DNA of 64,000 bases, taken from IMG/VR virus record IMGVR_UViG_3300029998_000020, positions 1-64,000 of that record, one strand, 5' to 3'. The position numbers and the translations under genes were made by a program. This document shows positions 2,686 through 60,596 of this stretch, one piece after another. Below the pieces are notes generated by a model. That model searched no databases and was not told the DNA's origin. It saw nothing but the letters and a program-made list of their open reading frames with translations. Each line of letters begins with the position of its first letter. Position 1 is the stretch's first letter. The stretch comes from a virus.

Positions 2686-2716
2686 CAAATTTACTAAAAT
2701 TATTTGATAATACAAA
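2686..2716 (-). promoter_or_regulatory. Bacteroidota-type promoter
   Basis: On the minus strand: TTTG (2713-2716), 19-nt spacer, TAAATTTG (2686-2693). It lies inside the 3' end of the gene at 2700-3383 and drives the decayed ORF and the gene at 1984-2502. Confidence 0.75.
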
Positions 2717-3383
2717 AATTTATTGTCAAATAATTATTATGAATTTTTTTTATCTCACACAATTTATCTTTTCTTTTGTATACAGGATTACACACTAGGC
2801 ATATAAGACCGTGTTTTTTTGTATTCCACATCATCTGATAATCACCTTTTTGTTTGCATTTAGGACATGATTCGTTACTTTCTGAACCTATAACTTGATA
2901 ATCTAATGAATAATAATCATTATCAAAAGAATAAAATTCAGAGTCTCCATCAAGTAAACTGTTTATGCTATACCATCCATCGTCATTATCGTTATATTTT
3001 TGTAGTATAATTTTAAGTTCTGATTTAGCATCTTCTGATAATTTAGTATTATATTTCCATAAATCCCAATCTTCATTATTACATGTTGAAATTAAATAGC
3101 AATCTGCAACTTTTTTTATATAAGTATCATAATTGCAACTTTGAAATGTTATTGCCTGATTCTCATCTAAATTTTGTAAAAAATTTAGATATTTATCGTG
3201 CTCATTTTTTCGATATTCATCCTGTTTTTTATCTCCACCTCCATAATCTCCATAATCTCCATATTCATCATATTTTCTATTAATCATATATGTAGCAAGT
3301 TCACGTACACTTTTAAAATTCTTATCTGATATTATAAAACTACTTGATGATGAATTACTAACAAATCCAGTTCTTATTTTCAT
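2700..3383 (-). CDS. SNSSSSSF-leader protein with zinc-ribbon, 227 aa
   Basis: The leader MKIRTGFVSNSSSSSF is followed by an acidic/aromatic region with a YGDYGDYGGGD repeat (about residues 41-51) and a C-terminal CPKC-x(18)-CLVC zinc-ribbon-like pair (about residues 174-200). The zinc site suggests nucleic-acid or protein binding, which is inference. It lies in the same minus-strand operon as the other leader-bearing proteins. Confidence 0.8.
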   Translation of the reverse strand: MKIRTGFVSNSSSSSFIISDKNFKSVRELATYMINRKYDEYGDYGDYGGGDKKQDEYRKNEHDKYLNFLQNLDENQAITFQSCNYDTYIKKVADCYLISTCNNEDWDLWKYNTKLSEDAKSELKIILQKYNDNDDGWYSINSLLDGDSEFYSFDNDYYSLDYQVIGSESNESCPKCKQKGDYQMMWNTKKHGLICLVCNPVYKRKDKLCEIKKIHNNYLTINFCIIK

Positions 3384-3402
3384 TTTCTATTATTTTCTAT
3401 TA

Positions 3403-3705
3403 TTAACAATATGTCGTACCAGTTATCAATTCAACTTCACTAATATCAACATTTAATGTGTCTGCTACTAATTTAGATTTTTCTATTATATCTGATATCG
3501 ATGTTGCACTATCACTTAACTCTTCACTTCTTGATATTATATAACCAACAATATATTCGTAATTACTATTTTCAACATTAATTACTTCAATATTATTGTC
3601 AAATCCTTGTTCAATTTCATCTGTAGTGCAATTTGCTCTTTTGATACCAATTACCACAAAGCTACTTGAACTTGAATTACTCACAAATCCTTTTCTTATT
3701 TTCAT
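3403..3705 (-). CDS. SNSSSSSF-leader protein, 100 aa
   Basis: It begins MKIRKGFVSNSSSSSFVV and continues as a small acidic protein (DEIEQGFDNNIEVI ... VELITGTTYC). Apart from the leader it shows no similarity to its neighbours that I can see. Spacing to the flanking genes is under 20 nt, consistent with one operon. Confidence 0.75.
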   Translation of the reverse strand: MKIRKGFVSNSSSSSFVVIGIKRANCTTDEIEQGFDNNIEVINVENSNYEYIVGYIISRSEELSDSATSISDIIEKSKLVADTLNVDISEVELITGTTYC

Positions 3706-3718
3706 ATTTTCTTATTTT

Positions 3719-4180
3719 TTATCCATTTCTACCTGCGCCAAAATAAACTTCTGATTTATTTAAGTCTAACCCTGATTTTTCACTATAAAAAGCATTATAA
3801 ACTTTTTTGTCATTATTCTCAAAGAATGACATATCAATATCATAATCAATATCATCATAATCAGATGTCATAAAATCTGAATCACCTTCATTATTGCATA
3901 TATTAACAACTAAAAATAAATCTTCATCTTTACAATCTTTAGTATCTAACGAAGCATTTGTTTGAAATGACTCTACATAAATTTTATTATTGTTAAAATG
4001 TATATCATAATTACCGCTTTCTTTAATATTAGATAACGTTAATACTTTAACATAATAATCCAATTTAATATTATTATCTTTTGTGTATTGTGTAAATTCG
4101 TTGTAATCATTAATCTTGGCTATACCAACAATAAAACTACTTGATGATGAATTACTTACGAAACCATTTCTTATTTTCAT
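3719..4180 (-). CDS. SNSSSSSF-leader protein, ~153 aa
   Basis: The frame is open back to 4231, but the start is placed at ATG 4180 because the conserved leader MKIRNGFVSNSSSSSF begins exactly there and the upstream part would overlap the IMP dehydrogenase C-half gene. The body is acidic (SDYDDIDYDIDMSFFE) and ends SEVYFGAGRNG. Function unknown. Confidence 0.75.
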   Translation of the reverse strand: MKIRNGFVSNSSSSSFIVGIAKINDYNEFTQYTKDNNIKLDYYVKVLTLSNIKESGNYDIHFNNNKIYVESFQTNASLDTKDCKDEDLFLVVNICNNEGDSDFMTSDYDDIDYDIDMSFFENNDKKVYNAFYSEKSGLDLNKSEVYFGAGRNG

Positions 4181-4193
4181 ATTCTTATTTTTT

Positions 4194-4784
4194 TTACAAT
4201 AAATGTGGTCTTGCTTCAGCAATTCCAGCATTTGTTACTTGATACCATTTTGGATTGTATTCAGATAGATTGTTAGCTCCTCCATAAGATAATGCTGAAC
4301 GAACTCCATAAATTAATCCTTCTATTACAAATCTTACTCCACCTTTGAATGGTATAGTTGTTGACTCTCCTTCTACATTTCTCTCAGCTTGACCATGAAC
4401 AGTTTTAGTTTCCAATGATGCAGAGCCTCTATAGCGTTTATATAAACCATTAGGACTCTCTATAACCTTACCTGGTGATTCTTCTGTTCCTGCTAATAGA
4501 GAACCTAACATGATTGTTGATGATCCTAATGCAAGAGCTTTAGAAATATCTCCACTTGATCTAATTCCACCATCAGCCATAACTGGTACTGTTGCTACAT
4601 TTAAAATTTCTATTAAACTTGTCACATTTGGAACACCAAATCCTGTCTTAATCCTTGTTGTACAAAGAGAATTATGAACAACAATACCATTTATATTATA
4701 CGAATGTGTTTTTTCTACTGTTAAATCATAAACTTTGCCTGTATAATTCTTTTTCTCAATGCTTTTTATTTCTACTAATTTCAT
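4194..4784 (-). CDS. guaB: IMP dehydrogenase C-terminal half with split-intein C domain
   Basis: Residues 1-38 form an intein C-terminal domain: motif F-like YDLTVEKTHSYN and terminal motif G VVHN, followed by Ser+1. From Ser39 the protein is IMP dehydrogenase: SLCTTR holds the catalytic Cys loop, then GFGVPNVTSL, VMADGGIRSSGDI (phosphate site) and the C-terminal RYRGSAS flap. Protein splicing with the product of 4896-5765 would join GIGGG to SLCTTR and restore the active-site loop, giving a ~348-residue enzyme without CBS domains that oxidises IMP to XMP for GTP synthesis. The sequence closely resembles the known IMPDH-1 class of split inteins. Its ATG overlaps the stop of the endonuclease remnant. 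Confidence 0.95.
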   Translation of the reverse strand: MKLVEIKSIEKKNYTGKVYDLTVEKTHSYNINGIVVHNSLCTTRIKTGFGVPNVTSLIEILNVATVPVMADGGIRSSGDISKALALGSSTIMLGSLLAGTEESPGKVIESPNGLYKRYRGSASLETKTVHGQAERNVEGESTTIPFKGGVRFVIEGLIYGVRSALSYGGANNLSEYNPKWYQVTNAGIAEARPHLL

Positions 4785-4906
4785 ATTATATCTTTTAATT
4801 TTTTAATAAAACTTCCATCATTTATCTCATTCTCCCAAATTCTAATTAATTTAAAATTGTGTTCTAATGCAAATTTATTTTTCTTTATATCTTTTTCAAA
4901 TTTCAA
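4781..4906 (-). pseudogene. Remnant of Vsr-like homing endonuclease between intein halves
   Basis: A 41-codon frame without a start codon, preceded directly by TAG. It encodes KDIKKNKFALEHNFKLIRIWENEIND, then FIKKLKDII. The ALEHNFKLIRIWENEI part matches the C-terminal strand/helix of Vsr-like (PD-(D/E)XK fold) endonucleases, as in the ECEKLGYNYIIIIDKNYND tail of the nuclease at 50836-51825. It overlaps the end of the N-half gene by 11 bp, and its stop overlaps the C-half ATG (ATGA). It reads as the last part of a homing endonuclease gene that once separated the two halves and has lost its catalytic region. Confidence 0.75.
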
Positions 4907-5765
4907 CTAAAAAATATTTATCAGTTAAATTTCCTGCTGGTATCCATTCAGCATACTCTTCAATATTTGATGAGTTAACTAAACCTTTATATTTTATATT
5001 TACAACATAAAATTCATGATTTTTTGTGCATTCTATGCCATTTATAATAATAATTTCCTCATTTCTATCAAACTCTAATTTATTTAATACTTTATTGAGT
5101 TCTCCATTATGACTATAAACTTCATCTCCAATTTTTACATCAATTATATCAATATATCCTTCTGAAGTTTTAACTTTCATGCTAGGTGTAAAACAGCCTC
5201 CACCAATACCACATCTTAGTCCATCAGCTCCCCAATTTTGTAAATCAATAGCTGCTTCTGATGTAGCAATATTACCTGCAATTATATCCACTCCTAAATC
5301 TAATCCTTTAATTGCTTCGATTGCTTTTTTTACATTTATGTGATGACCATGTGCAACATCAATAAGAATAACATTTACTCCTGCTTCAATTAATGATTTG
5401 GATCTTTCTAAAAAATCTCCGTTTGAACCTACTGCTGCCATTACTGGAATTTTGTGCCTTATTTTATCTTGATTGAAAGGATCATATGAACTATTCTCAA
5501 TACTTGTAATTAATTTTTTAATTTCATTTGCCTGTTCTTCAATAGACATAAATCTATGAATACATCCTACTCCTCCTAATTGAAACATTTTAAATGCCAT
5601 TTCATGTTCACAAACTGTGTCCATGGGTGATGCTACTAATGGTATCATCAACTCAAAATTTGTCGATAATTTTGTTCTTAAACTAATTTTATTTCTATGT
5701 TTAACTTCACTGTAAAATGGTATGAGTTGAATATCATCATACGTTAACGCTATGTTATTTGTCAT
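4896..5765 (-). CDS. guaB: IMP dehydrogenase N-terminal half with split-intein N domain
   Basis: Residues 1-190 are the N-terminal part of the IMP dehydrogenase barrel: LTYDDIQLIP, PLVASPMDTV, GCIHRFMSIEEQ, then directly the VGSNGD / VILIDVAHGH segments with no CBS pair, ending NWGADGLRCGIGGG. Cys191 opens a 99-residue intein N domain (CFTPSMKVKTSEGYIDIIDV, GDEVYSHNG, EEIIIINGIECTKNHEFYVV) that stops with TGA. No endonuclease domain is fused. It must act in trans with the product of 4194-4784. Phage guanylate synthesis for genome replication is the likely purpose. Confidence 0.95.
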   Translation of the reverse strand: MTNNIALTYDDIQLIPFYSEVKHRNKISLRTKLSTNFELMIPLVASPMDTVCEHEMAFKMFQLGGVGCIHRFMSIEEQANEIKKLITSIENSSYDPFNQDKIRHKIPVMAAVGSNGDFLERSKSLIEAGVNVILIDVAHGHHINVKKAIEAIKGLDLGVDIIAGNIATSEAAIDLQNWGADGLRCGIGGGCFTPSMKVKTSEGYIDIIDVKIGDEVYSHNGELNKVLNKLEFDRNEEIIIINGIECTKNHEFYVVNIKYKGLVNSSNIEEYAEWIPAGNLTDKYFLVEI

Positions 5766-23261: not shown

Positions 23262-25136
23262 TTATTTTATTTCCTCAAAATCCACGTCTGTTACATTTTC
23301 AGAATCATCTTTTTTGTCAGATGAATTGCTTTCATTCGTTGACTGATTTTTTGATTCTTCATAAAGTTTACCACTAATGTTTTGCCAAACATCATTAAGT
23401 TCTTTGGTGTATTTATCAATATTATCAACATTTTGAGTTTTGTGAGCTTCTTTAAGATTATCAAGTTTAGAATTCAATTCAGTTTTGTTTTCTTCATTCA
23501 ATTTATCACCAAATTCTTCAATTTGTTTTTCAGTTTGAAAAATCATTGAGTCAGCTTGATTCAACTTATCAACTTTTTCTTTTTCTTTCTTATCAGCATC
23601 AGAATTTTGTTCAGCTTCCATTTTCATTCTTTCAATCTCTTCTTTTGTTAGAGATGAATTACCTTCAATCCTAATGTCATTCTTTTTTCCTGTTGCTTTA
23701 TCAACTGCAGTAACTGTCAAAATATTATTTGCATCAATTGAAAACGAAATTTCTATTTGCGGTACTCCTCGTCTGGCTGGCATAATTCCATCTAAATTAA
23801 AAGTTCCCAACATTTTATTATCCTTAAACATACTTCTATTTCCAGTTGAAACATTAATCTGAACACCAGGCTGATTGTCAGTGGCTGTACTGAATATTTG
23901 TGTCTTAGTTGTAGGAATTGTTGTATTAGCCTCTACCATGACACTGGCTACACCGCCCATACTCTCCAGTGAGAAGTTTAAAGCTGTAACATCGAGTAAT
24001 AAGATGTCAGTTGTATCACCAGCAAGAACAGATGCTTGTATAGCTGCACCTGATGCAATTGCAGTATCAGGATTAAGTGACTTATTCGCTTTCTTACCAA
24101 AATATTTTTCAATACTTTCTGACAAATATGGAATTCTAGTGCTACCTCCAACAAGTACAATTTCGTCAATATCTGAAACTTTCTTACCACTTTTATTCAT
24201 TGATGATTGAATCAATGATATTGTTTTATCAACATAGAATTGAATCAATTGTTCAAATTTAGATCTTGTTAATTTTTGAACCAAATGTTTAGGTTGTCCA
24301 TCTACAGCAGTGATGTATGGTAAATTTATTTCTGTTTGTGTAGTATTAGACAATTCTATTTTTGCTTTTTCTGATGCTTCTGTAACACGTTGTAGAGCCA
24401 TTGGATCTTTACGAATATCAACGCCTGTTTCTTTTAAAAATTCATCAGATATAAAATTCACAAGTGCGTCATCAATTAAATTACCACCTAAATCTAAATC
24501 ACCATCAGTTCCAATAACTTCAAATAATCCGTCCTCTATATCTAAAACTGAAAAATCACTTGTACACCCACCACTATCAACTATCATATAAAGTTTACCA
24601 GTTTTATCTTTAATATTTAATGATGCTGCTGTTGGTTCAGATATAATTCTATCAACAGTAAATCCTGCTATTTCACCTGCAACTTTTGTACTGCTTCTTT
24701 CATCTGAATTGAAATATGCTGGAGTTGTTATGACCGCATTGGTTACATTTGTTCCAAGGTAATCTTCTGCTGTTTTTTTCATTTTTTGAAGGATCATTGC
24801 AGAAATTTCTTCTGGTGAATATATTCTTTCACCAATTTTTACACCAGCCTTACCATTATTATCAACTATATCATAAGGACGTTTAAGATGTTTAACTTCC
24901 TCATAAGTTCTACCAATAAGTCTTTTGATATTAAAAATTGTGTTTTTTGGATTTAATGCTGCTTGTCTTTTTGCAGATTCACCAACTTTAATTTCTCCTG
25001 TTTTTTCATCAAATGATACAATTGAAGGAGTTGATAGCGATCCTTCTGAATTAGGTATGACAATTGTTTGTCCACCTTCTACTATAGATACGGCTGAATT
25101 GTATGAACCTAAATCTATTCCAATAATTTTTCCCAT
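23262..25136 (-). CDS. dnaK: DnaK/Hsp70 chaperone, 624 aa
   Basis: Full-length Hsp70. Nucleotide domain: Asp8 in GIDLGSYNSAV (usually GIDLGTTNS), Lys71 in NIKRLIGR, Glu167 in SEPTAAS, and phosphate-2 loop DSGGCTSD (usually DLGGGTFD), which keeps both Asp and the Thr. The linker DILLLDVTALN is followed by a substrate domain with ESMGGVASVMVEANTTIPT and the helical lid, and the bacterial end VTDVDFEEIK. It presumably folds or assembles phage proteins with host co-chaperones; no dnaJ or grpE is in the window. The altered phosphate loops suggest divergence from the host copy. A complete dnaK is rare in phages. Confidence 0.95.
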   Translation of the reverse strand: MGKIIGIDLGSYNSAVSIVEGGQTIVIPNSEGSLSTPSIVSFDEKTGEIKVGESAKRQAALNPKNTIFNIKRLIGRTYEEVKHLKRPYDIVDNNGKAGVKIGERIYSPEEISAMILQKMKKTAEDYLGTNVTNAVITTPAYFNSDERSSTKVAGEIAGFTVDRIISEPTAASLNIKDKTGKLYMIVDSGGCTSDFSVLDIEDGLFEVIGTDGDLDLGGNLIDDALVNFISDEFLKETGVDIRKDPMALQRVTEASEKAKIELSNTTQTEINLPYITAVDGQPKHLVQKLTRSKFEQLIQFYVDKTISLIQSSMNKSGKKVSDIDEIVLVGGSTRIPYLSESIEKYFGKKANKSLNPDTAIASGAAIQASVLAGDTTDILLLDVTALNFSLESMGGVASVMVEANTTIPTTKTQIFSTATDNQPGVQINVSTGNRSMFKDNKMLGTFNLDGIMPARRGVPQIEISFSIDANNILTVTAVDKATGKKNDIRIEGNSSLTKEEIERMKMEAEQNSDADKKEKEKVDKLNQADSMIFQTEKQIEEFGDKLNEENKTELNSKLDNLKEAHKTQNVDNIDKYTKELNDVWQNISGKLYEESKNQSTNESNSSDKKDDSENVTDVDFEEIK

Positions 25137-26049: not shown

Positions 26050-26922
26050 TTAAAACTTTTTCATTTTTTGGTAAGAAATTTCATTTCTTTCGTTACTACG
26101 TTGCTTATCTTTCTTTTTTTGTTCTTTCTTGTCCTTCCAAGATGTACCTTCAGATTTATCTTTGATATTTAAGATTGGTTTGATTTTATCAAGAATCAAA
26201 GCAGTAGGTCCAATTGCTTTTTCAATCATTTCAGAGTTTTTGTAAGCAAATGGTGATTCATCAATTGTACTTTTACATACAGAAGTTGAATATATACCTT
26301 TCATTACTCTCTGAAAGTCTTTTAAATCAACTGACTCTTTTGCTTTTGATCTTGACATCAAACGACCAGAACCATGTGGAGCTGAGTTATTCCAATCTTC
26401 ATTTGATTTACCTTCACATATAAGTATTCCATCTCTCATATTGAATGGTATAATCATTTTTTCTCCAACATATGAAGATATAGCACCTTTTCTTATGATA
26501 AAGTCTTTGAAATCCACATAGTTATGTATTGAATGAATTTCTTCATCAAATTTTTTGATATTCAATGCTTTTTTTATCAAAGACAACATAGTTTTTCTGC
26601 TCCATAGAGCATATTGTTGAGCAAAAATCATATCAAATAGATAACCAATAAGATATTCTCCGTCTAAATATTCTTTGCCAATATTAAGACTGTATCTTGT
26701 TCTCAATTCTTTTATTTTTTTATCAATATCAGATTTTGGATAAGTATTCATAGTAATGTCATCCAATTCCATGTTATATTCTTTGGTTGCAACAAATACT
26801 TTACCATTTGCTACTTTAGTCCAGTGTTCAGCTATTTTCAAACCAAAGTTTCTTGAGCCAGAGTGAACTGTTACCCAATAATCATTAGTCTTATCTGACT
26901 TACCAAGTTCAATAAAGTGATT
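26050..26922 (-). CDS. rtcB: RtcB RNA ligase, exon 2
   Basis: 290 codons of the C-terminal RtcB domain. They start at NHFIEL (second part of the GGGNHFIE metal-binding motif) and continue VTVHSGSRNFG and SAPHGSGRLMSRSKAK, which holds the guanylylated His region. RtcB joins 2',3'-cyclic phosphate or 3'-phosphate RNA ends to 5'-OH ends using GTP and Mn2+, so it could repair tRNAs cut by host defence nucleases. A lysine-rich tail (WKDKKEQKKKDKQRSNERNE) extends the usual end. The reading frame joins exon 1 exactly when the intron at 26923-28016 is removed. Confidence 0.9.
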   Translation of the reverse strand, partial: NHFIELGKSDKTNDYWVTVHSGSRNFGLKIAEHWTKVANGKVFVATKEYNMELDDITMNTYPKSDIDKKIKELRTRYSLNIGKEYLDGEYLIGYLFDMIFAQQYALWSRKTMLSLIKKALNIKKFDEEIHSIHNYVDFKDFIIRKGAISSYVGEKMIIPFNMRDGILICEGKSNEDWNNSAPHGSGRLMSRSKAKESVDLKDFQRVMKGIYSTSVCKSTIDESPFAYKNSEMIEKAIGPTALILDKIKPILNIKDKSEGTSWKDKKEQKKKDKQRSNERNEISYQKMKKF

Positions 26923-28016
26923 CAATTTTGTTACTATTATTTTAATTTCAATCTAAATAACCTCATTTTTATAGATTGCTTTGTTCTTTTAAGATTTTCT
27001 ATTGATTCAGATATATCATTATTTATAATATAATTATCTTCATAGTCTGTCCATATTTTACGTTCAAAATCTATTTTTTTGATATTAATTGGTCTTTCCC
27101 AATTTAATATTTTTTGAGCAGAATCATATTTTCTATTTATACTCATACAATCTTTATAATATAATATTTCAATTATTTTTTGAGAATTTTCATTCATCAC
27201 CATTATATTATATAAGTTATCTCTTTTATTTTTATTTGTTATTTTTTTATATCCAATAATGTTAGATAAAAAAACAACAAATTGTTCAGCAAGTTTACTA
27301 GAACATGTAACTAAAGATATGAAAGGTAATCCTTTTTTTGTAAATCCTAATGATCCATCGCCATCTATAACTCCTCTCCAGTAATCAATTTCTATTATAT
27401 TATCTGGTTTCTGAATTGTGTGTGATTTTTTACCAACAGGTAAATACTTTTTAAATTCATTTCTTGTTTCTAATTCAAATATTTTTAATGCTGATGTATT
27501 TGAAATATATTTGTATTCTTTAATATTAATATTTCTTGTTCTTTCAGTTATTGAAACATTACAATTAAGAATAGATTTTATATATTTTAATATATTATCA
27601 TCACTTTTATTTATTTCAAGTGTGATTCTTCCTCTATTTCTAGTTGATTCGTATAAATTACCATCAGTTTGTAATAAACCTATAATGTATGCATGTTTCT
27701 TATTTAAAATGTCTATTTTCATAATGTGTTTTTATTTGTATATATAATTTCACTTTATTGAAAATTTACATTTCATTGAAATTGTAATAACGAGATAGAC
27801 ATTTCTGCTATCTTCAATATCTTCTTATTAAATATTGTTCAGAATGTACCTTTTACCTTTGTGTATTACAGTGAGATAAAACAAGTCCCTCCATTCGTTA
27901 CAGGGTGTTATCTAAAATGACAGAGCACTTCCCTCGGTATTAGCATCACAGCCGTCCACCGATTTGGACGATTTTAACTACTATTAGCTATTAACTAATA
28001 CGGTGGCAATCAATTC
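26923..28016 (-). ncRNA. Group I intron in rtcB
   Basis: Removing these 1,094 nt restores GGG|NHFIEL in frame. Group I hallmarks: the 5' exon ends CGGTGGT, whose last U would wobble-pair with G in the intron guide GCCACCG (P1). The GATT just 5' of that guide is complementary to AATC at the start of exon 2 (P10). The intron ends in G (AAAATTG|AATCAC). Further hairpins follow P1, e.g. ATTAGTTAATAGCTAAT and CGTCC...GGACG. About 290 nt upstream of the LAGLIDADG ORF should hold most of the ribozyme core; I could not assign P3-P7. Confidence 0.85.
26937..27722 (-). CDS. LAGLIDADG homing endonuclease (intron-encoded), 261 aa
   Basis: Two LAGLIDADG motifs: AYIIGLLQTDGNL (about residues 11-23) and YWRGVIDGDGSLGF (about 118-131), the pattern of a single-chain two-repeat meganuclease with catalytic Asp residues at TDG and GDG. 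The C-terminal 40 residues (WTDYEDNYIINNDISESIEN, then IKMRLFRLKLK) form a Myb/SANT-like helix-turn-helix extension. It stops 14 nt before the intron end. Expected to cut intronless rtcB at the GGGNHF site. Confidence 0.9.
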   Translation of the reverse strand: MKIDILNKKHAYIIGLLQTDGNLYESTRNRGRITLEINKSDDNILKYIKSILNCNVSITERTRNINIKEYKYISNTSALKIFELETRNEFKKYLPVGKKSHTIQKPDNIIEIDYWRGVIDGDGSLGFTKKGLPFISLVTCSSKLAEQFVVFLSNIIGYKKITNKNKRDNLYNIMVMNENSQKIIEILYYKDCMSINRKYDSAQKILNWERPINIKKIDFERKIWTDYEDNYIINNDISESIENLKRTKQSIKMRLFRLKLK

Positions 28017-28538
28017 ACCACCGCCTAACGTTCCAATTGATTTATAAAATTTACCTTCGTCAATACCTATATCTTTCAATTTTGATGTTAGCCATTTTTC
28101 ATTGTATGTAGGTGATTCATAAGAAGTTCCAAATTTTTCATTAAATTTTACAATGAAATTATCCGCAATTACTTGAACATCGCCAAACGGTATATTTTTA
28201 AATTTAATATCTTCGTGCATACCAAATCCCATAGGAACATTTTCACGTATAAGATTGTCAATTTTCTCTAAATCTAATGAAGTCTTACCTGAAAAACTTG
28301 CGCTAAGCATCCCGCAGCCCAAATCTACTCCGATCGTCGACGGCTTAATGTATTTACCTAATTCTTGTGTATATCCGATTACGCATCCCGATCCAACATG
28401 TGTATCTGGCATTATTCTGATTTTCAATCCTTTAGATGTCTCAGAATTAATACTATCATATATTTGAGTATATACTCCTTCTTCAACTTCATCGATAAAT
28501 ATTTTAGCGTCAGTATATTTACCTTTTAATTCAATCAT
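28017..28538 (-). CDS. rtcB: RtcB RNA ligase, exon 1
   Basis: 174 codons: MIELKGKYTDAKIFIDEVEE, PDTHVGSGCVIGY (Asp/His metal site), STIGVDLGCGML with the Mn-binding Cys75, FGMHEDI, ending SIGTLGGG. Unspliced RNA would add only ELIATVLVNS before a stop. Promoter at 28590-28620. Confidence 0.9.
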
Positions 28539-51866: not shown

Positions 51867-53346
51867 ATATATTTGTTTCTTCTAATTTTTTTAATTCATC
51901 TTTTAACTTTTCAAGTTCTTCGTGTTTTTGATTCATTACTTTCTTCCATTTTTTTCTATCAGAATAAACTTCTCCCATTACTTGAGTAACAACACCATCT
52001 TCATTCTTAAATACTGATCCATTGAGAGTTACAATATCATCAGGTTCAATTGTTAATTGATGTCCATTAAATAATGAGTAATCTTTACCTTTTACTTTTT
52101 GTCCTTTATATGAGTCTGCTGATATGTTAAATTCTCTCATTGTGGTAGGATACAGGGATGCGAAGTCAAAACAACAAGTCCATGTTGCCATTCCTCTCAC
52201 TGGATCTTTAACCCATCCACCTTTAATAGATTCAGATTCAGAATCACTATATTCACTATCTTCATTTCTTACAAGTACAATATTCTTTTGATCTCTTAAT
52301 TTTTCTCTTAAAATTCCTTCTGTCAGTGCAAGTGTTGAAATTGCATCTTTAATTTTAATTTTACCTAATACAGCCATACCATAAAGAATATCTACATATT
52401 TCATTTTAACGTGAATTCTTTGTACCAGACAACTATCTACAGCATTATAAAAAACGAATTTCTTAAAATCTTCTCTATGTAATCTTTTTAAATCTCCATC
52501 ATAGTTAATTTTCTTGACTTCTTTACCAAGAATTTTTTCTGATGCAAAATCAAGAGATAAACTTTCTTTAACTTTAACAGATTGATCCCATTTCTTAAAT
52601 AATTCCATATAATCCACTATAACTCTATGAGCTGGTAATTCAGCATAATCTAAATGTATTGCATTAGGAGGATTGAATGGTTTGTTAAGTTTCTTTGTGA
52701 AAGATGCTACTTCAGGTTCTAGTCCTAATTTTCTTGCCCTTGCAACTAAGAATGTCCAGTCATATGCAATAAAATTCCAGCCAGTCATTACTGGCATTTT
52801 TGGAACTAATTTATTGAAAAATGCATGAAGCATATCAAATTCAGTTTTATAATGAACATATTTAAATTTATAATCAGTATCAAATTTTTTGAAGTGAGTA
52901 TTTAAATCTGATTCAATGTTTTCAATTTGTTTTGAATCCAGTGATTCTGTTCCAATTACTAACACTTTATTCTTATTTACAATTGATATTGTTTGAATCG
53001 CACTTTCTGCTAAATGAGGTTCAGGTTTTTTATCTAATATTTCATTTTCAATATCGACAAAGAATATATCTGGTTCATTATAACTATATATTTCATTTTT
53101 TTCATCTTCATCAAAACTATCAATAAAATCATAAATAGAATATCTATTAGGATATTTTGTGAATATTTCTTTTACAGCACTACCATCCCATGTAACATAT
53201 CTACCAGATTTTTCTGAATCATCATCAGTAGTTTTTATGAATTTTGTACATCTTGCCCAAGGTTTATATTTTAATTTTATTTGACCTGATTTATCTATGT
53301 AACTTATTATAAGGTTATTATTTCTGTATTCTGTGTCTATAAGCAT
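51865..53346 (-). CDS. Family B DNA polymerase, N-terminal part (gp43-like), 493 aa
   Basis: Exonuclease motifs: FFVDIENE (Asp98, Glu100), GWNFIAYDWTFL and FYNAVDSCLV; then polymerase motif A, CCFDFASLYPTTMREFNISA (about residue 393). The frame ends soon after, in DRKKWKKVMNQKHEELEKLK, which corresponds to the fingers domain, so motifs B (KxxxNSxYG) and C (DTD) are missing. No intein sequence at the end. The C-terminal half must be encoded outside the window for activity. Split gene 43 is known in some Aeromonas T4-like phages. Confidence 0.9.
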   Translation of the reverse strand: MLIDTEYRNNNLIISYIDKSGQIKLKYKPWARCTKFIKTTDDDSEKSGRYVTWDGSAVKEIFTKYPNRYSIYDFIDSFDEDEKNEIYSYNEPDIFFVDIENEILDKKPEPHLAESAIQTISIVNKNKVLVIGTESLDSKQIENIESDLNTHFKKFDTDYKFKYVHYKTEFDMLHAFFNKLVPKMPVMTGWNFIAYDWTFLVARARKLGLEPEVASFTKKLNKPFNPPNAIHLDYAELPAHRVIVDYMELFKKWDQSVKVKESLSLDFASEKILGKEVKKINYDGDLKRLHREDFKKFVFYNAVDSCLVQRIHVKMKYVDILYGMAVLGKIKIKDAISTLALTEGILREKLRDQKNIVLVRNEDSEYSDSESESIKGGWVKDPVRGMATWTCCFDFASLYPTTMREFNISADSYKGQKVKGKDYSLFNGHQLTIEPDDIVTLNGSVFKNEDGVVTQVMGEVYSDRKKWKKVMNQKHEELEKLKDELKKLEETNI

Positions 53347-53455
53347 ATATTATATATTTTTATTTTATTATCTAATAAAGTTTCAATGAACTTTTACTTA
53401 TTTAGTCCAATTCATATTAAAGGTTTAATAAAAATATCATAAAAAATATCATAAA

Positions 53456-59113: not shown

Positions 59114-59845
59114 TTAATAATATTTTAATCTAGATTTATTTAAACTTATATTTCTCACTAAAGTAGAATAAGTTAAATTTAAATCTTTTGAGGCTTGTCC
59201 TATGGTATCATAAATTTTAGAAGTTAATGTATCAATAACTTTTTTTAATTTTTTGTGATTTTTACCAGATCTTTTTTCAATTTGATCAAAAGATTGAGTT
59301 ATTCCAAAAAAATGAGAAGTTGTTCCTGTTTTTCCATACCAATAATTATTTTCTCCACTAGTTTTTAATTTCCTTTCTATGCTTTGTTTTTTTCCAAAAT
59401 TAGGATTTTTTTCTCCTTTATTGCCAAAATTTGCATTGCCTTCACCTTTAATTTTTTCACAAAATTCTTTAGATCTTTTTTTACCATAAGAAGGATGCAA
59501 TGTTCCTTTTATTTTTCTTAATTTTTCTTTAGTTTCTTCACTATGTTTACCTTTACTACCACCTGATGCTAAATTCATCATTTCAAATCCATTTTTTTTA
59601 TACTCATTTATATAAAAAATTTCTTTTTGATCTAATATATCTTGTGTAACATCATCACAATTAAATTCGCATATTATTTCTATTGTGTGATTGTCAAAAC
59701 CATATTTTACTAAAGAATTAAATATTTTTGGTTGACGTTCACATTTTAAATTTTTATATTTTCTAAAACGTTTTTTTAAATCCCAACTTTGTCCTATATA
59801 AATTTTATCAGATGGACTTGTTATTTTATATATTCCAATATTCAT
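59114..59845 (-). CDS. GIY-YIG homing endonuclease, 243 aa
   Basis: The GIY-YIG module is at residues 1-95: GIYKITSPSDKIYIGQSWDLKKRF, with catalytic Arg and the Glu in ILDQKEIFYINEY. NUMOD3 repeats follow (HPSYGKKRSKEFCEKIKG, NFGNKGEKNPNFGKKQS), then a C-terminal NUMOD1-like HTH (IGQASKDLNLTYSTLVRNIS). The start lies 20 nt inside the end of the GT6 gene. Confidence 0.9.
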   Translation of the reverse strand: MNIGIYKITSPSDKIYIGQSWDLKKRFRKYKNLKCERQPKIFNSLVKYGFDNHTIEIICEFNCDDVTQDILDQKEIFYINEYKKNGFEMMNLASGGSKGKHSEETKEKLRKIKGTLHPSYGKKRSKEFCEKIKGEGNANFGNKGEKNPNFGKKQSIERKLKTSGENNYWYGKTGTTSHFFGITQSFDQIEKRSGKNHKKLKKVIDTLTSKIYDTIGQASKDLNLTYSTLVRNISLNKSRLKYY

Positions 59846-60596
59846 AAGTTAATTTGTTGTTTTGTATATTTATTGAATTGTTTTTATGTATTAACAATTC
59901 ATTTTTTATATCATTAACATCTAAATCAGTGTATCTAGTTTCGCCTATACCACCTTTATCACTAATCGCAAATGCAAAATCTTTACATGAAACTACTTTT
60001 GTAGGTGGATTGAAATGAAAATAACCATTAATATAACTTTCGTCATTTACGCCGGGCTCATATGGTATTTTTTTATCTTCAAGTTGATAAAATAACATAA
60101 TATTACAAAATTTTATCATGTTTTCAGAATTACCTCCAAAAAATGCACCGTAGTAATACATTTGAGGTAATTTAGTATCAAGTGGTACATATGCTTTTGA
60201 TAATGGATTTCTATCGAATCCTTTTTCATTTTTCATCCAATCTTGATCTGCATAATGTTGTCCTCCAACCAAATCACCAACAAACCATTCTTCTGTAAAA
60301 TCAGTATTTACATTAGTATCAGCATCAAAATAAAACAAGTAATCACTTTTTAATTTATTTTTTATTGATAATATTGATGTAAATTTCAAATTAGTACCAT
60401 CAACCCAATTGCTATTAGATGCATAAAAATATTCTACATCTATATCATCAGGAATATAATCTTTTGGATTATTATCAGAGAAAAAATAAAATGTTATATT
60501 TTTATCTCCTTTATAAAAATTCATAAATCTTTTAATAAATCTCACACCCAATACAAAATATGCATTTGTTGCTAATACTACTATTCCTATATTCAT
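59826..60596 (-). CDS. GT6-family glycosyltransferase, 256 aa
   Basis: Strong resemblance to family GT6 (blood-group A/B and alpha-1,3-galactosyl transferases): YLFYFDADTNVNTDF with a DxD motif, SKAYVPLDTKLPQMYYYGAF, FGGNSENMIKFC, and NDESYINGYFHFNPPTKVVS matching the acceptor-binding DESHLNKYLL..KPTK region. Soluble, without a membrane anchor, as in bacterial members. It would add an alpha-1,3-linked Gal or GalNAc. GT6 is rare in viruses (one is known in a cyanophage). Confidence 0.8.
   Translation of the reverse strand: MNIGIVVLATNAYFVLGVRFIKRFMNFYKGDKNITFYFFSDNNPKDYIPDDIDVEYFYASNSNWVDGTNLKFTSILSIKNKLKSDYLFYFDADTNVNTDFTEEWFVGDLVGGQHYADQDWMKNEKGFDRNPLSKAYVPLDTKLPQMYYYGAFFGGNSENMIKFCNIMLFYQLEDKKIPYEPGVNDESYINGYFHFNPPTKVVSCKDFAFAISDKGGIGETRYTDLDVNDIKNELLIHKNNSINIQNNKLTYEYWNI

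Follow-up and report, generated by a model that had tools for sequence, protein, structure and literature searches.

What is the insertion that splits the rtcB gene of this phage, and how did its parts come together at this site? In the window (the whole stretch of 64,000 nt analysed here) rtcB lies on the minus strand at 28538..26050, and an insertion of 1094 nt at 28016..26923 divides it in two. We are highly confident in the following overall account: the insertion, a mobile group I intron, lies in the active-site codons of rtcB and would excise itself, and it carries an rtcB-specialised endonuclease that was most likely exchanged with a free-standing lineage.

The 5' exon (28017..28538, minus strand) runs from its ATG to GGC GGT GGT and comprises 174 codons. 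The 3' exon (26050..26922, minus strand) continues with AAT CAC TTT to the stop, comprises 290 codons and has no ATG at its start. Excision keeps the reading frame, and the joined exons encode 464 aa reading GTLGGG/NHFIEL across the junction (marked by the slash). The Pfam RtcB profile is contiguous over this junction, with positions 15-153 in the first exon and 154-425 in the second. Phage relatives whose exon-2 protein is 76-97% identical have an empty site at exactly the same base (L004, L006, L008, L010 and others), and most rtcB-bearing relatives are intronless; precise excision thus restores both the frame and the form of the intronless alleles. With the empty sites and the contiguous profile, the host gene, the insertion point and the GGG/NHFIEL join proposed in the initial annotation all hold to the base.

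Compared with the intact rtcB of the relative L014, dN/dS is 0.077 in the 5' exon, 0.041 in the 3' exon and 0.065 over the joined exons, indicating purifying selection. Since synonymous change far exceeds non-synonymous change in both exons, rtcB appears to be kept as a single coding unit. We also observed that dS against L014 changes stepwise across the intron, from 0.98 in the 5' exon to 0.39 in the 3' exon, and that identity to L014 is 90-97% from the intron site to about +1.4 kb and lower 5' of the site. The step suggests a recombination boundary between the window and L014 at the insertion point. A co-conversion (homing) tract next to the intron is not claimed, as the background identity to L014 is too variable.

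Several other features of the window were noted. A full-length DnaK/Hsp70 gene (23262..25136, minus strand) lies near rtcB in this phage. Nine small ORFs between 22794 and 34123 have unlike bodies and a common C-terminal tail, R-x-L-K-L-x-K-[IL]-N (for example ..RKLQLIKINKK, ..RTLKLNKINEKNK and ..RKIKLNKLCKIKN), which could be a shared signal or the mark of a paralogous array. Three adjacent ORFs (2700..4180, minus strand) start with a nearly identical N-terminus, MKIR[TKN]GFVSNSSSSSF. A DNA polymerase B ORF (51868..53349, minus strand) breaks off at position 147 of the 453 in its Pfam profile, and no further piece was found in the 92.8-kb record; this gene is truncated, split or divergent.

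Ribozyme anatomy and group I identity

The intron (26923..28016, minus strand) begins with G and ends with G at 26923. In P1 (28001..28023, minus strand) the exon sequence CGGUGGU (28023..28017) pairs with the internal guide GCCACCG (28007..28001) through six Watson-Crick pairs and a U-G at the splice site, and the P10 guide GAUU (28008..28011, minus strand) pairs with AAUC of the 3' exon (26922..26919) in four of four positions. P1, P10 and the terminal G were thus all found where the initial annotation had placed them. We tabulated 22 introns at the identical rtcB base: all of them have the U-G and the terminal G, and most have the 3' end GUAACA(A/G)AUUG. In the relatives P1 covaries with the exon codons (GGUGGU:GCCACC, GGAGGU:GCCUCC, GGGGGU:GCCCC). 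The P2 hairpin, read from the sequence as UAUUAG-UUAAUAG-CUAAUA (27982..28000, minus strand), has a loop similar to that of the phage introns L035 and L036; this loop is not a GNRA tetraloop and here the window differs from the chromosomal introns. The catalytic core (27785..27975, minus strand) comprises P3, P4, P5, P6, P7, P8, P9 and P9.1 according to our covariance model R1 and pair counts, with P3 formed by GUCC (27969..27966) and GGAC (27888..27885), P4 by UCGGU:ACCGA, and the bulged P7 by A[C]GAAUG (27898..27892) and CAUUCU (27846..27841).

In a core alignment of 13 introns the helices P3, P4, P6, P7, P8, P9 and P9.1 are paired in 99.4% of cells, and 25 of the 40 core pairs have changed on both sides. 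Compensated cells number 62, versus 13.1 (sd 2.9) in shuffles, which sequence relatedness can inflate, and versus 3-4 with the partners slid, a control that retains relatedness and in which pairing drops to about 40%. The bulge of P7 is kept while its pairs change (GAGCA:UGCUC; GAACA:UGUUC in L061; GAAUG:CAUUC in the window). P3 is invariant among the aligned rtcB introns. It varies and yet pairs in Bacillus phage, L033, ribonucleotide reductase and gut-phage introns: CCUGU:ACAGG (L022), CGCCU:AGGCG (L033), UCCGGC:GCCGGA (L101) and UCGAGC:GCUCGA (L142). A core from P3 to P9 with a bulged P7 and the P3/P7 pseudoknot was therefore found, P4 and P6-P9.1 by covariation and P3 by comparison between families.

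A covariance-model search for the group I core had been proposed as a check, with failure to find a core to count as refutation, and it gave two answers. Rfam model RF00028 did not match the window copy at its gathering threshold, nor did relaxed limits of E<=10 for the locus and E<=0.5 for the whole window bring up a match. R1, which was built from the relatives' introns, scores the window intron at 153.7 bits within its own training set, and pair counting agrees. Outside its training R1 finds the introns of Bacillus phages at 46 bits (E 5e-10) and that of L033 at 61 bits; the Rfam group I scores are 72.6 and 67.4 bits for the Bacillus phage introns and 68.4 bits for L033. Because the same-site relatives L022, L024 and L033 pass RF00028, we take the miss as a detection limit of the Rfam model, that is, of a detection aid and not of a structural requirement. 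In our reading the comparative evidence, with a full core P1-P10 and compensatory changes, settles that the insertion in rtcB is a group I intron, as had been suggested.

It is hardly conceivable that the element is instead an archaeal-type (bulge-helix-bulge) intron, a group II intron or an intein. The endonuclease belongs to Pfam LAGLIDADG_3, enzymes of archaeal introns and of inteins are among its PDB matches, and RtcB inteins are known (NCBIfam NF052663, NF038162), but the group I helices covary and the same-site relatives are group I introns by Rfam. The intein reading is refuted by stop codons in the exon frame, and protein-splicing motifs are absent as well. Elsewhere in the window, the IMP dehydrogenase/GMP reductase gene (5765..4197, minus strand) is interrupted at GIGGG/SLCTTR by an apparent split intein. 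Its putative N-intein extends from a Cys at 5195 to a stop at 4896 and is followed by a 111-nt gap and a C-intein ORF (4784..4671) ending in VVHN/S. This interruption presumably resembles the IMPDH split inteins known from phage metagenomes.

Judging from this anatomy, the intron RNA would fold as a standard group I ribozyme and excise itself with exogenous guanosine. Splicing would join GGU to AAU and produce full-length RtcB of 464 aa. Single-strand folding, which is uninformative on a pseudoknotted core, gives the intron only a slight advantage over shuffles (z -1.9), and the minimum-energy fold swaps P3/P4 for a local hairpin, UCGUCCA/UGGACGG; hence the efficiency of splicing is uncertain. 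The sequence in question, UCGUCCA-AAUCGG-UGGACGG at 27969..27950 (minus strand), could form a 7-bp hairpin in competition with P3/P4 and is missing from the aligned rtcB introns.

Could the insertion be degenerate, with a dead ribozyme and a phage RtcB that is inactivated or made as two pieces? The Rfam miss and the competing hairpin would fit such a state, and in one relative (L032, 2954..5097) rtcB is present as two ORFs with an endonuclease gene of the same family between them and no R1 ribozyme match. However, the core pairs of the window intron are intact with compensatory changes, P1 and P10 are perfect, both exons are under strong purifying selection and the 3' exon lacks a start codon of its own, so that we regard non-splicing as improbable. 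Mechanistically, the window element is an ordinary mobile group I intron.

The endonuclease and its family

The intron contains a LAGLIDADG homing endonuclease ORF (26937..27722, minus strand) of 261 aa that sits after P9.1, on the 3' side of the core, which it does not interrupt. The protein matches Pfam LAGLIDADG_3 (E 1.9e-9) and the profiles of I-HjeMI, I-Tsp061I and I-AniI. It has the two motifs GLLQTDG and GVIDGDG, whose aspartates D20 and D122 are conserved in the alignment, and a C-terminal helical domain. An AlphaFold model (mean pLDDT 92.1) matches the bI3 maturase, I-Tsp061I and I-SceI in the PDB. Two LAGLIDADG helices with their acidic residues and a duplicated fold are therefore present by alignment, predicted structure and PDB matches, which bears out the LAGLIDADG assignment of the initial annotation. 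From its location and the association of its family with rtcB, the enzyme most likely cleaves rtcB alleles that lack the intron, at the point where the intron inserts, and repair would then copy the intron in. A second homing-type enzyme of the window is a GIY-YIG endonuclease with a NUMOD3 motif (59117..59848, minus strand).

Scans with the single endonuclease sequence and with a core DNA pattern found only the same phage. The endonuclease profile alone opened up the family, and searching with it retrieved other interrupted rtcB genes. In the clade that holds the window enzyme, 34 of 37 members lie in or beside rtcB, the remaining three being on long branches. Intron-borne members occur at the same codon boundary in the window, in Bacillus phages and in the phages L035, L036, L038 and L033; in L033, a 202-kb phage, the endonuclease of the rtcB group I intron (3501..4483) is antisense to rtcB. 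They also occur in cyanobacteria (Nostoc, Anabaena, Brasilonema, Phormidium, Elainella and Kastovskya), in two Acidobacteriota and in one contig that is filed under Gracilibacteria but has an intron of the cyanobacterial type. In our samples the rtcB intron was present in 7 of 292 cyanobacterial genomes and in 1 of 247 genomes of Acidobacteriota. The cyanobacterial sample includes an rtcB intron of 242 nt without an endonuclease (L097) and two introns with deleted endonucleases (L098, L099).

Free-standing members lie beside an intact rtcB in the phages L010, L031, L034, L039 (apparently frameshifted) and L037 (partial, without the first motif). Among 199 Streptomyces genomes 21 carry the endonuclease gene, 17 at near full length (one with an internal stop) and four as remnants, and in 21 of 21 it adjoins rtcB and is convergent with it. 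Taken together, the genomic positions indicate a LAGLIDADG family that is specialised to rtcB. The rtcB of free-standing carriers often has GAG, GSG or GTG in place of GGG. We make no claim of host-site immunity here, as these variants may reflect the phylogeny of RtcB and the requirement for U at the splice site.

Does it matter to the intron that RtcB is an RNA ligase? The initial annotation considered a self-splicing RNA in an RNA ligase gene notable. Group I splicing yields 3'-OH and 5'-phosphate ends and ligates them itself, and RtcB joins 2',3'-cyclic-phosphate or 3'-phosphate ends to 5'-OH ends. Because these end chemistries do not match, we reject as highly improbable a functional link in which RNA ends from the intron are substrates of RtcB or RtcB is under the control of the intron, and the mechanistic interest seen in this host gene finds no support. 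The one point in favour of such a link is that the host gene happens to code for an RNA ligase, whereas the choice of gene is accounted for by the endonuclease family, and most rtcB genes among the relatives, as in the cyanobacterial sample, do without the intron. Conserved gene stretches are the usual target of intron homing (PMC2814812), and GGGNHF as a highly conserved stretch of rtcB is the simpler reason for the intron site. That RtcB is an RNA ligase is probably incidental to the intron.

Phylogeny of the two parts of the intron

In the endonuclease tree the window enzyme is sister to the free-standing one of L010 (100/95) and then to that of L031 (100/98). In the ribozyme tree the window intron falls with the intron-borne L035, L036 and L038 (92/84) inside the cyanobacterial/acidobacterial type, a place of moderate support at the end of a long branch; the Bacillus and L033 ribozymes form a separate clade (100/100). 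Since the endonuclease groups with free-standing L010 while the ribozyme groups with other rtcB introns, the two appear to have separate histories. The segment shared with the L010 endonuclease gene (26947..27781, minus strand; intron positions 236-1070) covers a 59 bp leader and most of the ORF, with 77% identity over 842 alignment columns, and homology stops at both of its ends. On these comparisons the simplest account would be that a cassette with the endonuclease moved between a free-standing location and an rtcB intron already in residence. The direction of movement we infer, short of proof, from the nesting in the tree. Most likely the endonuclease came from the free-standing lineage of related phages into an rtcB intron that already existed, or the reverse, and most likely it did not co-evolve with its ribozyme from the start. 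Between the window endonuclease and the free-standing L010 gene dN/dS is 0.23; hence both the intron-borne and the free-standing state seem to be selected for function.

Alternatively, the intron-borne enzyme might be a recent passenger, and the intron might have spread mainly by collaborative homing, with free-standing rtcB endonucleases of co-infecting phages cutting the same site. We consider it a serious possibility, although we lean against it, that this route dominates. The free-standing members beside intact rtcB in L010, L031, L034 and L039, with a partial one in L037, speak for it, as do the position beside rtcB in all 21 Streptomyces carriers, the nesting of the window endonuclease among free-standing ones, the endonuclease-less intron of L097 and the deleted endonucleases of L098 and L099. 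However, no phage was seen with both a free-standing copy and an intron lacking an endonuclease. We prefer the account of a mobile intron whose own endonuclease was most likely exchanged with a free-standing lineage. To a broader proposition we would give an even chance: GGG/NHF of rtcB may be a long-lived exchange platform. One LAGLIDADG family dedicated to this site, free-standing and intron-borne, in phages and in bacteria of three phyla, would have switched repeatedly between free-standing loci and two or more distinct group I ribozymes inserted at an identical base.

If true, one natural series would show how mobile introns assemble, decay and assemble again. How group I introns gain homing endonucleases is an old question for which few such series exist. 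A single rtcB site presents intronless alleles, an intron without an endonuclease, deleted or antisense endonucleases and full mobile introns of two ribozyme types, to which are added free-standing relatives of the enzyme and one gene that it divides in two, where no ribozyme was detected. The rtcB elements are thus a good natural series on how mobile introns are put together. In addition, a whole lineage of group I introns in bacteria and phages escapes the standard Rfam model, and where a phage rtcB is annotated in pieces, an intron can be concealed between them.

Comparison with known systems

Our searches of a collection of open-access papers gave no report of rtcB as a group I intron host, and rtcB is unmentioned in the main text of a review of bacterial group I introns (PMC3984707) and of a 2025 database paper (PMC11835236); notice elsewhere or unannotated database entries are possible. 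Group I introns with homing endonucleases occur in conserved bacterial and phage genes such as nrdE, recA, DNA polymerase and terminase (PMC3984707). Like these, the rtcB intron has a core P1-P10, an insertion in conserved codons, an endonuclease ORF outside the core and empty sites in relatives. Unlike them, it has a host gene that the review does not mention and, in the window, a ribozyme that escapes the Rfam model.

Group I introns have been described from cyanobacterial ribonucleotide reductase genes (Meng 2007, as cited in PMC3984707). R1 detects such introns and an intron of a crAss-like phage (cr6_1) at 27-67 bits, and the P4-J5/4-P6 sequence UGCUAAUNCCGAGG is common to both and to the rtcB introns. 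The ribonucleotide reductase and cr6_1 introns differ in lying in other genes and in having an extra hairpin between P7 and P3 where sequences were read (L101, L142). The rtcB introns of Bacillus herelleviruses (BSP36, 278BB001, Goe17, Goe20 and Goe27) are inserted at the same base as that of the window and carry an endonuclease about 41% identical to it; their ribozyme, an Rfam group I intron in both cases tested, belongs to the separate clade (100/100). In the database records these loci are annotated as rtcB pieces, homing endonucleases or hypothetical proteins, with no intron annotated. The known RtcB inteins are selfish as well and reside in the same protein family, with protein splicing in place of RNA splicing, and the split rtcB of L032 is reminiscent of the split nrdA in phage Aeh1 (PMC2988022).

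A close parallel to the free-standing members may be collaborative homing, as in cyanophage psbA with F-CphI and in mobE/I-TevIII of T4-like phages (PMC3984707, PMC2988022). There, as in rtcB, a single conserved gene or site attracts both free-standing and intron-linked elements. The arrangement in rtcB differs in that the predicted free-standing and intron-borne enzymes form one LAGLIDADG family found in phages as well as on bacterial chromosomes.
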